Under the pieces are notes generated by a model. That model searched no databases and was not told the origin of the DNA. It saw nothing but the letters and a program-made list of their open reading frames with translations. A program made the translations under genes and the position numbers. Of a stretch of DNA of 20,968 nucleotides, positions 1 to 19,561 are shown in pieces; the first letter of the stretch is position 1, and each line of letters begins with the position of its first letter. Source of the DNA: a virus; IMG/VR virus record IMGVR_UViG_3300020439_000105, positions 1-20,968 of that record. One strand, 5' to 3'.

Positions 1-695
1 TCGTCTGAACCTTTACCTTTAGTGTTTGCGGTTGCGATGACATTGAAACCTGCAGTGGGTCGAACAAACTTTCCGATTTTTTTAAGAAAGACTCCATTTC
101 CTTCAAGAATGCTTTGGAGACAGAGAATTTTGTTAGAAGCGAGGTCGATCTCGTCAAGGAGCAAGATAGCTCCTCGTTCGAGTGCTTCAATGACTGGGCC
201 ATTGTGCCAGACGGTTGCACCATCAACAAGGCGGAAACCGCCAATAAGATCATCTTCATCAGTTTCAATAGTAATGTTTACACGGATGAGTTCCCGACCC
301 AATTGAGCACACGCTTGCTCAACCGAGAATGTTTTACCGTTTCCAGAGAGACCAGTAATGAACGATGGATAGAATAGACGGGACTGAATAATTTTTTTAA
401 TAGAACCGAAATTGCCAAACTTGACGAAGGTATCATCTTTTTCAGGAATAAGATTTTGCTGAACTGCAGGCATAGCAGCAGGAGCACTATAGGACACTTC
501 CAAATCTTGAACTGTCTCTTTTGTTACTTCCAGGTTCCACTTACCACGACCAACTTTGTATTGTGCCAGTTTGTTAGTCACAGTTTGATAATTAGTATCA
601 TTCATCGCACACCATCCACGAATTTCGGCACTCGTCACAGACTCACCGTAGAGAGCCTGGAGAGAGGTGCGAATGTAGTCGGGGGAGAGAGACAT
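1..695 (-). CDS. cobS: CobS-like AAA+ ATPase (partial, 3' end outside window)
   Basis: The reading frame opens with ATG at 695 (MSLSPDYIRTSL) and stays open for 231 codons to the window edge, so the C-terminus is missing. A Walker A motif GLSGNGKT lies near residues 118-125 and a Walker B motif ILLLDEID follows about 60 residues later, with a conserved IATANT sensor-like segment near the edge. This is the MoxR/CobS branch of AAA+ proteins. In bacteria CobS pairs with CobT to energise cobalt insertion by CobN in B12 synthesis, and cyanomyoviruses are known to carry a cobS homologue. The first 80 or so residues look like a small helical N-terminal domain. It lies downstream of a terminator and a TATAAT box and follows a CobT-like VWA gene with one small gene between. 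Whether it acts on a chelatase or on another target cannot be told from sequence. Confidence 0.85.
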   Translation of the reverse strand, partial: MSLSPDYIRTSLQALYGESVTSAEIRGWCAMNDTNYQTVTNKLAQYKVGRGKWNLEVTKETVQDLEVSYSAPAAMPAVQQNLIPEKDDTFVKFGNFGSIKKIIQSRLFYPSFITGLSGNGKTFSVEQACAQLGRELIRVNITIETDEDDLIGGFRLVDGATVWHNGPVIEALERGAILLLDEIDLASNKILCLQSILEGNGVFLKKIGKFVRPTAGFNVIATANTKGKGSD

Positions 696-724
696 AATGT
701 GGTTTGTTTGTTTCAACTGAAGTT

Positions 725-730
725 ATTATA
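725..730 (-). promoter_or_regulatory. Candidate -10 box (TATAAT) before the cobS-like gene
   Basis: A perfect TATAAT on the minus strand sits 30 bases upstream of the cobS-like ATG and only three bases after the T-tract of a terminator. The position 17 bases upstream falls inside the terminator hairpin and has no recognisable -35 element. It could be a sigma70-like promoter or a degenerate late promoter (TATAATAA against TATAAATA). A restart site here would explain how the gene is expressed beyond the terminator. Confidence 0.4.
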
Positions 731-733
731 CAA

Positions 734-757
734 GAAAAAAAGGGGTCCGAAGACCCC
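734..757 (-). terminator. Intrinsic terminator after the 99-aa gene
   Basis: Read on the minus strand, GGGGTC-TTCG-GACCCC forms a 6-bp GC-rich stem with a canonical C(UUCG)G tetraloop, followed directly by seven T residues. It begins about 11 bases after the stop codon of the 99-aa gene. The core is identical to the terminator behind the major capsid gene. Confidence 0.9.
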
Positions 758-768
758 CTATAGACAGT

Positions 769-1068
769 TCAAGAATCGGACGCTAGGTAATCTTCAAGTT
801 CTTGAACCAGACTGTCTTTACTGTGCCTTCTGTCCAGTTCAATACCGACGGTTCTACCGTATTCTTCCAATTCCTTTTTAGTCATATCATGAAGTGACAA
901 ATCACTCTCATAAGGAATAAGTTCAACCTCTTCTTCCACCTCAGCAGTAGGTTCTTCTACCACTTCTTCTACTGCAGGTTCCTCTACTACTGGCTCCGCT
1001 ACAGGAGCAGGTGCTGGTGCAGGAGTAGGGGCAGAGTTACCCCTGACTAAATCCCCAAATCTAGACAT
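769..1068 (-). CDS. Acidic Pro/Ala/Glu-rich protein with SAP/HeH-like C-terminus
   Basis: A 99-aa protein. Residues 1-11 (MSRFGDLVRGN) are followed by an Ala-Pro repeat segment and a Glu/Val-rich low-complexity stretch to about residue 50. The last 40 residues (around DMTKKELEEYGRTVGIELD and a following SKDSLVQELEDYL helix) have the helix-extended loop-helix pattern of SAP, HeH and Rho N-terminal-like domains, which often contact nucleic acid. No function is known to me. A GATAAATA late-promoter octamer lies 25 bases upstream, an AGGT ribosome-binding site precedes the ATG, and an intrinsic terminator follows, so it may be a single late transcription unit. An intrinsically disordered acidic arm joined to a small binding domain would suit a structural or packaged protein, but that is inference. 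Confidence 0.8.
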   Translation of the reverse strand: MSRFGDLVRGNSAPTPAPAPAPVAEPVVEEPAVEEVVEEPTAEVEEEVELIPYESDLSLHDMTKKELEEYGRTVGIELDRRHSKDSLVQELEDYLASDS

Positions 1069-1092
1069 TTTGATTACCTATTACTATAGAAA

Positions 1093-1100
1093 TATTTATC
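1093..1100 (-). promoter_or_regulatory. Late promoter GATAAATA for the 99-aa gene
   Basis: The minus strand reads TGATAAATA, in which the TGA is the stop codon of the upstream CobT-like gene and GATAAATA matches seven of eight positions of the T4 late consensus TATAAATA (cyanophage form NATAAATA). The distance to the downstream ATG at 1068 is 25 bases, similar to the other late promoters here. Confidence 0.6.
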
Positions 1101-3249
1101 AAGCAACAAGTTCCACAAACTCTCCAAGAATCTTTTTGTTCATCTTCTTGGTCTTGAGACTCTTCACAAATGCAGATTTGATTTGAGTCTTTGTTGCATC
1201 TTCGGCAACTTCAAACTCAGACTCCTTAGAAAGGGAGTTAGAAGAAATACCAAAGTAGGTATCATATCCAGAATTCTTGAGAGAGAATGCTTTCTGCTTC
1301 TTCCATTCTTTCATAGTATCGTCATGAAGTTTTCCATAGTATCCACAATACCGACGAACAAAACTTCCAGCATCACGAGACTCAAGGACACGAATACCGA
1401 TAAAATTAACTTCGGGGAAATTGTCCTTCAGATTGCGGAGAAGAATATCAGTAAATTGGTGCCAATCACAATCAAGAGAATATGTATTTCCAGTCTTACG
1501 ATCCCTAAGAATGCAGTTAGGAGTAACTGAACGACACCCGATAGTGGGTTCGGATTCCCAAGAACGTTGAACTTCAGCATGACGCTTAAGGTCATATCCT
1601 TCACCATCAGTCAAAACAACACACTGGACTTTCTGAAGTTTGTTCTCTTTCTTGAACTTGGGAAGAATCTTATGAAGAGTAAGCAGAGTCTCATTCAAAG
1701 GAGTTCCAGAAAGACCCATACCAGGAGGAGTGGGTGCATAGCAACTGTTGTAGCGACTGAAAGATTGTGCAAGACGGAAAACAGTTTTCATTTGGTCTTC
1801 CATAGTCTTACCATTCACTTTGCTAGTGAAAATATTGACAAGAGAGAACCACTCACCAACATGGAAGATTCCATCACGTCGGGTATAAGGAACATCACGA
1901 ACAGTAACCTTACCATTTTCATCAGTATGGACGTGAGGATAATCGGAAGTGAAAGAATATACCTCAAACGGAATAGCAACTTTTTTACAGAACCAAATAA
2001 GATTGAAAAGTTGCTTGACAGTATCCAGCATCACGTCACACATAGACCCGGACCAATCAAGAATGAACACCAGACCATGATTCTTGCCGTCAGCAAGGGT
2101 GGTGACCTTCTTAAAGAGGTCTTCGTTGTACTTATAGGTATGAAGTTTAGAGCAGTCCAGAATGCCTGTACTGGCAGTAGTGGCACGAGCATAAGAGTCT
2201 GCTGCCTTGCGACATTCAAACTCTTTCACCAGATAGTTGACCTCTTTCTGAGCAGAACGTTTAAATTCTGCAAACCTTTTATCAACTTCACCAAAGACAG
2301 ATTCTTCTGAGAGTTCGGCTTCCTCCAACCAATTAGACCAATAAGTCTTGGCATTATCATGAACCAGATTATTGGGAATAATAATTTGGTCAATTTTTAG
2401 GTCAGGAATCTCAACATAAACATTCTCATATCCATCCATAGATGCAAGTTCTTTGATTGCATCTTCCAGAGAATTGGCAGTCTTTACATCCAAATCATCA
2501 AGTTCTTCCTCTTCTTCAGAGAACTCATCCTCAATCTGAGACTTAGGTTGTTCGCCACCAATTTCACCACCCTCAGAATCAGAGGTAGATTCAGTCTCTG
2601 TACTTTCACCAGACTGTGCTTCAGGCGATTGTTGTCCTTCCTCATGTTCTTGCTGATGTTGGTCAGTTTTGACTTGATTCTCCTTACAATACTTGTAAAG
2701 CCGCTCTGCCACTACAAGAACTTCATCAAAAGTCTCAGTATCTGCAATTGCATCAATAATTTCTGTTTCTTCACCACTCCCAATAGGAACTAGAGTGTAG
2801 TTACCAATCTTGAACCGCAGATTTGCACGGTCTGCAAGATTCATCAGACTGATATCTTCATCTGCGACTTGGAAGAAATCTTGTTCAGCAAGTTCTTTGT
2901 ATCCATTAAAGAAAGTCTTAGAGAGACCGGCATAACGACGCTTCATCAGTTTCTCAATACGAGCATCCTCAACAATATTGACAAACTGAGGAGGAATCTT
3001 GACTTCCTTCAACCAGTTGCGGTCAGGAGTGTAAAGTGCATGACCAACTTCATGACCGACAAGCATATCGTATACAACGCTGCTTGCTCGCTCCCACATA
3101 GGAAGAGTCAGCACACGAGTATGAACATTAAACTGAGCAGTCTCTACTTTCTTGTGTTCTACAACAAGATCTTCGGTTGCCAGGAGTTTAGCAAGTTGCG
3201 ATTTGATCTCGTGATTGACTGCCATAATGTTTCGTTCGTATGGACTCAT
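1099..3249 (-). CDS. CobT-like VWA-domain protein with HExxH motif
   Basis: A 716-aa protein. Residues 66-70 are HEVGH within a conserved VGHEVGHALYTP segment, and a downstream VEDARIE (93-99) offers glutamates that could complete a gluzincin-type zinc site. Residues about 195-255 are an acidic Glu/Ser/Gln-rich linker. From about 390 a von Willebrand A domain begins with MIDAS residues DWSGS (398-402), a threonine in GTPLNE (516) and aspartate in LTDGEG (548). This layout resembles CobT, the VWA partner of CobS, and cyanophage homologues are often labelled peptidase. It probably works with the CobS-like ATPase. The start could be ATG 3249 or ATG 3225 (MAVNHEIKSQ); the latter shortens the overlap with the upstream small ORF and I find it at least as likely. 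Neither start has a clear Shine-Dalgarno sequence. Whether the HExxH motif is catalytic is unknown. Confidence 0.9.
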   Translation of the reverse strand: MSPYERNIMAVNHEIKSQLAKLLATEDLVVEHKKVETAQFNVHTRVLTLPMWERASSVVYDMLVGHEVGHALYTPDRNWLKEVKIPPQFVNIVEDARIEKLMKRRYAGLSKTFFNGYKELAEQDFFQVADEDISLMNLADRANLRFKIGNYTLVPIGSGEETEIIDAIADTETFDEVLVVAERLYKYCKENQVKTDQHQQEHEEGQQSPEAQSGESTETESTSDSEGGEIGGEQPKSQIEDEFSEEEEELDDLDVKTANSLEDAIKELASMDGYENVYVEIPDLKIDQIIIPNNLVHDNAKTYWSNWLEEAELSEESVFGEVDKRFAEFKRSAQKEVNYLVKEFECRKAADSYARATTASTGILDCSKLHTYKYNEDLFKKVTTLADGKNHGLVFILDWSGSMCDVMLDTVKQLFNLIWFCKKVAIPFEVYSFTSDYPHVHTDENGKVTVRDVPYTRRDGIFHVGEWFSLVNIFTSKVNGKTMEDQMKTVFRLAQSFSRYNSCYAPTPPGMGLSGTPLNETLLTLHKILPKFKKENKLQKVQCVVLTDGEGYDLKRHAEVQRSWESEPTIGCRSVTPNCILRDRKTGNTYSLDCDWHQFTDILLRNLKDNFPEVNFIGIRVLESRDAGSFVRRYCGYYGKLHDDTMKEWKKQKAFSLKNSGYDTYFGISSNSLSKESEFEVAEDATKTQIKSAFVKSLKTKKMNKKILGEFVELVA

Positions 3250-16837: not shown

Positions 16838-19561
16838 TTAAACGTTACCGATGACTTCATCAAACGAAACGCCAGATCTGGTGGCGACAAACGAAAGACC
16901 AATAAAGTTAATTGATCTTGCGGGTTTGATATAAATGTCAGCCACAAACTCATTATTGTCTATGACTGCACCTGTGTTATTTGTTTCGTCGCAAATAACT
17001 ACATAATCTTGAATACCTCTCTTCGCTTGAACATCACGAAGGAAAGGTTCAACAACGTTTACAAAGTTAGTTCTTGTAATTTCATCGTTGAATTCAAAGA
17101 GTTGATCTTTTGCAGCGGCAGAAATTGCATCTTCAAGATAGATAAACAAACGACGAACGTTGATTCTATCGAATGCAGATGCCTTAGCAAGTCCTGTCTT
17201 ATCACCAAAAAGAACAATACCAGCACCAGGTGAGAAGATAACTGAATTAACTCTTTCAGAATACAGGCGATCTCTTTGAGATTGATTTGGATTGTATGCC
17301 AACTTGACTGCATTCAGAATTGCACCTCTTGAGGTTCCTGCAGGAGAGAACCAGGGGAAGTTGTCAATATCATTACGAGCACACAGTCCAGCAATATCTC
17401 CGTTCAAAGGAACATAGCGGAAAGTATTTGCAAATCTATCGTACATATACTTATATCCACTATCAAATACTGCATAAGATGAAGAAGGAATCATGGAATA
17501 GTAAGCGAGTACATTATTTGTAATCGTCTCGTCACTTCTTAAAACATTTGATGCTCCATCACCAGATTCACTTAGGAATGCTCCTCTATATGGGGAGATG
17601 AACGCTACTGCATCTTTTCTTTGTCCTGCGACACTAATTAAAAGACTTGCTAAAGATGCTGCCTTTTCTTTGCTATAATTTGCAGAACCCATAATAAGAA
17701 AATCTACATCATATTTCTCTTTATTAATGAAGAGATTATATCCAATAGTAATTTTACTCAAATCTGGAGCAAGTGCTCCATCGGAACCAATAATTGATCC
17801 ACCATCATAATTAGTACCACCACTCAATTCATAATTATGTGTTCCTGCACCACCAAAGATAATTGGACCACTCGAACTATCTTCAGTATCTTGATCCCAT
17901 GAAAAATCAGTTGATGCCGTGTAACCGGAACTAAATCCGGAAGCAACAACACCTGCAGGTGAAGATCCGCCAAATACATATGCCGAATTTGTCTTCAGAT
18001 ATGATCTCCAGTAAGATGGTGATCCAACAGAATACTGTGAATCTGTTGCTTTAGAGAGATTTAAATGCTTCTCTAAAATTGTTCCTGCATTTCCGGTGAT
18101 TTTTCCTTCACCATCAATAATTACAACGTGAATCTCGTCGAATCTCGATCCTCTTTCTGCAGCATACTCAGAAGTACCTGGTCTATCTGCTATTTGATTC
18201 CAAGGAACAGTCTTTACAATTCTTGTATCACCTACTGTCTCTCTAGAAATTGAAAGAGTTTGTTCATCATACCAGTCTTTAGCACCAGTTGGAGTTACTT
18301 CACTAGTTGCACCATTTAAGAAAGATGTTACAGAAACAAATTCTCCACCAACCTGCAAAAATCCACCAGCGTTAACTTTATCAGAAACATCAGAAGCAGT
18401 ATTTAACTTAACTTCCGTGCCGGTATCAGAAACCTCTTCTGTTACTGTAGCAATACCACCATATTTCTTGAGATACTTAACTGATGTACCATCAGTATGA
18501 TCTGCACCAGGTGTTCCTTCTGCTTCTCTTGTAACTCCGGAAATTTGACCGTTTCCTAGAGTTGCTCCACTAAGAGAAATGAGTTCATTTCCAATAACTA
18601 AGAAATCATTAGCAGTAAATGCTTCTGTGAACCCAGCAGTTGCAATACCAATAACTTCTGCACCATCTGCCAAAGATGCACCACCTTGCATATCAAGAGT
18701 TAAGGTTGACTCCAAATGATATGAAGTAATTGCGACACCTGCAGAAATTGTTGCCGCAGTTTCTCCTAAAACACCCCTTGTAACTTGAACGGAGGTTGTT
18801 CCTGCACCTGCACCGACAACAGAAATTGCATGTCCAGATCTAAATCTATACGTACCGTTATAGGTGTAATCTTGAGAAGTTTCGACAGCTGATGAACCGG
18901 TACCAACTACGCGAGAAATAAATTTGACATAGATTTCATTCTTTTCAACATCCTTTCCAGTTACAATACCTTTAAAATCGCCGGTAAGATCCGTTGTATC
19001 TCCATTACCAATAATTAAATTATCTTCAGTAAATGGAGTTGTAGATTGTCTTACCCCATCACCAGTACTAATACCAGCAATATCACCTGCTTCTAATGTG
19101 AGAATCTGATCTGCCTTTGAGTCAATAACACCAACTCTAATTCCGTTTGCCCAGGATCCTGGATTCCTAGCAACTACGAATTTTCCGTTAATGGTGTTTG
19201 TATCATATTGTTTGATTTCATAATCTTCAACACTTTTGACCTTGATACTCGATGATATACCAGTATTTGCAAAAGCGTTTGCTAAGTTGTCAGAATCTGA
19301 TCTAACAACACTCATCTGAGCACCATATGCAAGATATGATGACGCAGTTAACCAATGCTCATAGTGGTTATCGTTATTGTAAGGCTTACCGAAATTATCG
19401 AGTAAATCCTTTTCTGATCCGATGATAAGTGGAAGATCTACTGGACCCTGTGCAAAAGGTGCAACAAGGCCACCAATATTAGCGGAAGAAGGATCAACTC
19501 TTCCAACGGTGAGATCAACTTCCCTTACTTTAATTCCAGGAGATGCTAAATTTACTGGCAT
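16838..19561 (-). CDS. 18: Tail sheath protein gp18, enlarged
   Basis: A 907-aa sheath, well above the 659 aa of T4 gp18. The N-terminus (VNLASPGIKVREVDLTVG) and the C-terminal half from about 600 (ITIGYNLFINKEKYDVDFLI, GIVLFGDKTGLAKASAFDRI, FIYLEDAISAAAKDQLFEFN) are the conserved, inter-subunit parts. Residues about 150-455 look like an insertion built of repeated small beta modules with GNE/GGE turns and RGxxGE/REaeGT motifs; a second Gly/Ser-rich variable part covers about 530-600. The insertion should be on the outside of the tail. A GAGGGA ribosome-binding site and a CATAAATA late promoter precede it. Confidence 0.95.
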   Translation of the reverse strand: MPVNLASPGIKVREVDLTVGRVDPSSANIGGLVAPFAQGPVDLPLIIGSEKDLLDNFGKPYNNDNHYEHWLTASSYLAYGAQMSVVRSDSDNLANAFANTGISSSIKVKSVEDYEIKQYDTNTINGKFVVARNPGSWANGIRVGVIDSKADQILTLEAGDIAGISTGDGVRQSTTPFTEDNLIIGNGDTTDLTGDFKGIVTGKDVEKNEIYVKFISRVVGTGSSAVETSQDYTYNGTYRFRSGHAISVVGAGAGTTSVQVTRGVLGETAATISAGVAITSYHLESTLTLDMQGGASLADGAEVIGIATAGFTEAFTANDFLVIGNELISLSGATLGNGQISGVTREAEGTPGADHTDGTSVKYLKKYGGIATVTEEVSDTGTEVKLNTASDVSDKVNAGGFLQVGGEFVSVTSFLNGATSEVTPTGAKDWYDEQTLSISRETVGDTRIVKTVPWNQIADRPGTSEYAAERGSRFDEIHVVIIDGEGKITGNAGTILEKHLNLSKATDSQYSVGSPSYWRSYLKTNSAYVFGGSSPAGVVASGFSSGYTASTDFSWDQDTEDSSSGPIIFGGAGTHNYELSGGTNYDGGSIIGSDGALAPDLSKITIGYNLFINKEKYDVDFLIMGSANYSKEKAASLASLLISVAGQRKDAVAFISPYRGAFLSESGDGASNVLRSDETITNNVLAYYSMIPSSSYAVFDSGYKYMYDRFANTFRYVPLNGDIAGLCARNDIDNFPWFSPAGTSRGAILNAVKLAYNPNQSQRDRLYSERVNSVIFSPGAGIVLFGDKTGLAKASAFDRINVRRLFIYLEDAISAAAKDQLFEFNDEITRTNFVNVVEPFLRDVQAKRGIQDYVVICDETNNTGAVIDNNEFVADIYIKPARSINFIGLSFVATRSGVSFDEVIGNV

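Follow-up and report, generated by a model that had tools for sequence, protein, structure and literature searches.

A cobS-linked gene pair of T4-like cyanophages as a candidate AAA+/VWA protein-remodelling machine with a predicted metalloprotease domain

The cobS gene is nearly universal in T4-like cyanophages. It is used as a marker and routinely placed among the vitamin B12 auxiliary genes; the usual argument has phage CobS serving a ribonucleotide reductase that depends on B12. A T4-like cyanophage-type fragment of 21 kb (IMG/VR virus record IMGVR_UViG_3300020439_000105, 20,968 nucleotides, hereafter the window) carries a cobS-like gene close to a gene for a VWA protein, and raises the question of whether this pair makes vitamin or handles proteins.

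Layout of the locus and the AAA+ subunit

All main genes of the window lie on the minus strand. By order and similarity to phage S-SM2 we take them to include gp46, gp47, a gp55-like sigma factor and a UvsW-like helicase, followed by structural genes. The features of the locus are as follows.

3–716, minus: CobS/MoxR-type AAA+ ATPase ORF; 3' end beyond the window edge, start at TTG 716 or at an ATG near 695
769–1068, minus: small ORF of 99 aa between the AAA+ and VWA genes
1093–1099, minus: ATAAATA, a T4-late-promoter-like element; overlaps the 3' end of the VWA gene and precedes the small ORF by 25 b
1099–3249, minus: VWA protein of 716 aa with a predicted zincin domain; PHROG 459 ‘peptidase’ (E = 3e-260), named CobT in PMC8651126
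2953–3054, minus: putative zincin motif, HEVGH (66–70) and N91..E94-D95-A-R97-I-E99, from conservation and model helices
1606–2058, minus: VWA MIDAS, D398xS400xS402, T516 and D548, from alignment A3

The ORF coordinates bear out an earlier note on this DNA, which had described the two genes as lying on one strand with a small gene between them. Its identification of a CobS/MoxR-type ATPase from the Walker A motif GLSGNGKT was likewise confirmed, with an AAA_5 domain (E = 4.5e-17), a Walker B motif (LLLDEID) and sensor 1 (ATANT) also present in the window protein, and with the LERF arginine finger of this AAA+ class, together with STRRL, read from aligned full-length close relatives. In two such relatives, L004 and L006, the protein counted from the ATG runs to about 365 aa. 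The window ATPase also matched PHROG 249 (E = 4.5e-86), and its relatives in the PDB are midasin, NorQ, CobS and CbbQ. Against the TIGR01650 CobS model the protein, cut by the window edge, scored 32.7 bits versus a cut-off of 558.6.

A zincin-type motif in the VWA partner and its relation to CobT

The nearest isolate for the 716 aa protein is Synechococcus phage S-SRM01, from a reservoir (62% identity), with S-SM2 at 58%. The earlier note had described a CobT-like VWA protein with a complete MIDAS, and the MIDAS part of that description stands. In alignment A3 (53 sequences with a mean column identity of 38%, including bacterial and Asgard archaeal proteins from Desulfallas, an Aeromonadales bin and a Helarchaeota contig) F379, D398, S400–M403, D548 and G549 are invariant, and T516 is kept in at least 90% of the homologues. 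What had been overlooked is an N-terminal zincin motif, HEVGH at residues 66–70 followed by N91..E94-D95-A-R97-I-E99. Invariant residues of A3 in this part are P50, H66, E67, H70, N91, E94, D95, R97, E99 and G108. HExxH is intact in all 142 environmental T4-like homologues read from IMG/VR loci, with N..ED.R[IV]E downstream, and is also kept in proteins of phages Ochrobactrum OC, HTVC008M, S-CREM2, DLP6, PhiR41, CRP-810, Mae-Yong and Saratov-12 and of a Rhizobium phage; the Saratov-12 protein has no equivalent of E94.

An AlphaFold2 model of the protein (mean pLDDT 81, pTM 0.74) displayed, at about 90 pLDDT, a helix (17–25), three short strands and two further helices (57–73 and 87–105), with H66, E67 and H70 on the second helix and E94–E99 on the third. 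In the model, these elements follow the order to be expected for a small Glu-zincin-like domain: in mini-Glu-zincin metallopeptidases (PMC3890501), too, a small sheet precedes the HExxH helix and an acidic helix comes next. The window domain differs from these in being fused to a VWA domain and in having no sequence-level family match. Foldseek matches of the model were confined to the VWA half, with no PDB zincin among the matches listed. The best were NorD VWA domains bound to NorQ (E = 3e-4; 12% identity overall), and NorQ/NorD likewise joins a MoxR AAA+ protein to a VWA partner. The MIDAS domain of human midasin was a further match. Folded as a single sequence, the N-terminal 197 residues gave a pLDDT of 36. 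The window VWA protein alone produced only chance matches in a PDB sequence search and matched no known protease family. The best Pfam hints were found in relatives, namely a match of S-CREM2 to Zn_peptidase_2 (E = 0.0025) and, for a single A3 member, one to DUF2201_N (E = 0.0033). Plasmids searched with the protein of the Ochrobactrum phage gave no match. Judged by sequence, the conserved HExxH and downstream acidic ligand that zincin metallopeptidases require are present, with a presumed third ligand, and the VWA partner carries a probable metalloprotease domain.

Alternatively, the zincin domain could be inactive and act as a protein-binding module as in CobT, which would make the pair a pure remodelling chaperone. 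Loss of the site in CobT and in related VWA proteins of phages nickie and BUCTxx99 points to non-catalytic use of the fold; the two phage proteins have no HExxH but retain an adjacent CobS-like gene, so ring and VWA protein can work protease-free. We nevertheless consider an inactive domain unlikely, given that H, E and H are kept without exception in 142 of 142 homologues that vary in other positions (mean column identity in A3, 38%). The nickie and BUCTxx99 loci (L185, 2974–5058, and L188, 3492–5477) offer natural protease-dead forms for comparison.

As for the label ‘CobT-like’, it survives as a statement of distant homology and fails at the level of family models. The window VWA protein matched neither Pfam CobT (PF06213) and CobT_C (PF11775) nor the NCBIfam CobT models, which are matched by more distant phage members, e.g. 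PhiR41. It has the VWA domain with MIDAS and the adjacent CobS gene of a CobT, but reads HEVGH at the N-terminal site, which is degenerate and has no HExxH in canonical bacterial CobT. Among 51 bacterial PF06213 proteins read, taken from a single bacterial order and from the broader phylum surrounding a Rhodobacteraceae bin, 49 had no HExxH before the VWA domain, and the aligned CobT region reads RxHD..TH.RY.P...YEAMETARCEAMGARDMPG. Of the two exceptions, one (L216) has a stray HExxH elsewhere and the other (L217) is phage-type, with HECGH and N..EDPRVE. The latter, encoded in bacterial genome G065, scores just above the Pfam CobT cut-off and is probably a prophage protein.

A phage profile found solved CobT (E = 3e-16) over the VWA half only. 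Comparison of the phage and CobT N-terminal domain profiles gave a weak, short match (probability 31, E = 5e-4), so N-terminal homology rests on bridging PhiR41-type proteins and the alignment. In a tree of VWA domains, bacterial CobT grouped as a single clade (100/100) nested among zincin-bearing lineages (88/98), with long branches limiting confidence, while the T4-like clade lay apart from the CobT side (100/100). Three changes of motif state were seen on the tree, the losses in nickie and BUCTxx99 being separate from that in CobT. The CobT of chelatases appears to be a derived branch in which the protease site was lost.

Spread of the pair and the vitamin B12 question

The VWA protein was found in 463 phage records, and searches with CobS and with the VWA protein gave the same totals by group (Synechococcus 365, ‘Cyanophage’ 61, Prochlorococcus 24, Pelagibacter 3). 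CobS lies downstream of the VWA gene in 128 of the 142 IMG/VR loci read, and the other 14 contigs end no more than 1.9 kb from the VWA gene. The AAA+ and VWA genes, a MoxR-type AAA+ gene and a MIDAS-VWA gene side by side, are paired beyond chance. The earlier note's view of them as a pair of the same general kind as CobS/CobT and NorQ/NorD, to which midasin can be added, is supported, and the frequent lone occurrence of one gene that it had named as evidence against a two-part machine was not seen in T4-like cyanophages. The pairing, which it had offered as a new inference, had already been published, as cobST in PMC8651126, where the viral cluster is described and called cyanophage core, and as MoxR with a metallopeptidase-VWA protein in PMC7824862.

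The cyanophage core combination of cobS and ‘peptidase’ (PHROG 249 and PHROG 459) consists of the same genes in the same order, and the window is another member with nothing essential different. Group 2.2 jumbo phages, compared by description (PMC7824862), have the same domain order, metallopeptidase then VWA, beside MoxR; the window phage, by contrast, is T4-like. Similar pairs were found in phages of diverse hosts (Vibrio, Escherichia, Rhizobium), and the zincin-VWA loci of Desulfallas, Aeromonadales and Asgard origin each adjoin a MoxR-type gene. On the Helarchaeota (Asgard) contig L102 (3875–8289) a zincin-VWA protein (IHESWH ... VNIIEDARIE) comes after an AAA_5 ATPase, and by this contig the pair appears to reach archaea. 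The Desulfallas contig L101 (4278–9336) encodes a MoxR-type ATPase, a zincin-VWA protein and then a PD-(D/E)XK nuclease, and this locus may be a prophage. Phage S-CREM2 has a divergent CobS-like gene beside its zincin-VWA gene (L084, 5998–9252), though PMC10665884 reports no cobS. In Pumpernickel, a CobS-like ATPase stands beside a non-VWA neighbour.

In PMC8651126, cyanophage cobT is said to be ‘mistakenly’ annotated as a peptidase and hijacking of host CobN is proposed; the pair would then act as CobS and CobT in a cobaltochelatase that, with host CobN, raises cobalamin in infection. Both phage proteins are indeed distant homologues of bacterial CobS and CobT, and cyanobacteria have CobN without CobS or CobT (PMC9227772). 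However, hosts already perform this step, probably via ChlI/ChlD (PMC9227772), and the occurrence of like pairs in the Vibrio, Escherichia and Rhizobium phages also speaks against the proposal. Bacterial CobT is partnered by CobN and has no HExxH, whereas the window protein keeps an intact zincin site and is unmatched by CobT models. No CobN gene was present in nine complete phage genomes bearing the pair, which extends the earlier note's observation that none is visible in this DNA. With a conserved AAA+/VWA pair and no phage CobN, a target other than a chelatase, as that note had suggested, is plausible.

Ribonucleotide reductase provided a further line of evidence. Among 13 phages checked, all ten that bear this enzyme have class I (small subunit), which argues against a B12 role for the pair, and none of the 13 had a class II NrdJ above the curated cut-off. 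Class I ribonucleotide reductase needs no B12. A class II enzyme as the source of the phage's cobalamin need was rejected for the 13 phages tested. On sequence grounds the peptidase label of cyanophage cobT is supported. The CobN proposal is weakened, and we regard a cobaltochelatase working with host CobN as unlikely.

Gene neighbourhood, the late-promoter-like element and proposed function

Replication, recombination or repair genes, identified by annotation alone, lie within about 6 kb of the pair in 12 lineages. Across these lineages the neighbours include gp46/47, the clamp and its loader, DNA polymerase, primase, UvsX/RecA, ligase and a DnaB-like helicase, and in CRP-810 endonuclease V is the repair gene near the pair.

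The small ORF between the two genes starts with MSRFGDL (MSRFG[DE]L) and has a Pro/Glu-rich middle and a C-terminal ‘MTKKELEEYGRTVGIELDRRHS’ segment. It evolves fast, the strict start pattern being found in 29 of 135 loci, and has a conserved tail, ‘ELE.YGR..GIELDRRHS’. Weak PHROG matches were to an endonuclease VII family and to prohead protease inhibitors, and the product is possibly an adaptor or client. Of 140 homologous loci, 80 have ATAAATA where the VWA gene ends, in most cases 22–25 nt ahead of the next ATG; upstream of the VWA gene it occurred in 2 of 138 loci versus 3 expected by chance. In total the window holds late-promoter motifs at the chance level (7 versus 5.8), and only position and conservation single this one out. 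The window ORFs that start at 19561 (gp18-like), 13400 (gp22-like) and 14499 have similar elements 26–36 b ahead of them. The small ORF, and perhaps CobS, may be boosted late.

This possible late boost keeps alive a further explanation, proposed for group 2.2 jumbo phages in PMC7824862, that the pair is a virion-assembly machine which remodels and trims structural proteins. The zincin-VWA-MoxR anatomy matches that proposal, and the same paper cites a precedent, an archaeal virus whose tail assembly involves a MoxR-VWA system. The motif just ahead of the small ORF and CobS fits as well, but upstream of the VWA gene itself it is no more frequent than chance predicts, and in most lineages the pair is housed in the replication module. 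In addition, the virion proteome of S-CREM2 (PMC10665884, Table 3) includes the prohead protease and scaffold and not the pair proteins ORF55 and ORF56, although assembly factors may leave the virion. On this evidence, a role in assembly seems possible, if somewhat unlikely.

We therefore favour, with moderate confidence, a two-part protein-remodelling machine with a probable metalloprotease in the VWA partner, and not a cobaltochelatase: since the VWA protein keeps a zinc-protease signature that the B12 proteins have lost, it is more likely to unfold and cut proteins than to make vitamin. In such a machine the AAA+ subunit would form a hexameric ring, by analogy with NorQ, CobS and midasin, on which the VWA protein would dock via its Mg2+ MIDAS. 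ATP-driven motion would remodel a client and present it to the N-terminal zincin domain, which would cleave it. Judging from the genes around the pair, candidate clients are proteins of replication, recombination or repair, or a host protein handled during phage replication. A broader claim would make the ocean ‘B12 gene’ cobS one half of an AAA+ metalloprotease that acts at the replication stage, clearing or maturing replication-machinery proteins, and would derive bacterial CobT from such proteases by active-site loss. It is speculative and, taken whole, quite doubtful.

Collectively, the gene pair is well known and probably misnamed; ordinary as a pair, it is more interesting as a test of the role of cyanophage cobS. 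One published statement calls the peptidase label mistaken and another gives relatives a metallopeptidase domain; the case allows a direct test between them. Should cobS prove to be half of a remodelling protease, many ecological interpretations of B12 metabolism in phages would have to be revised.
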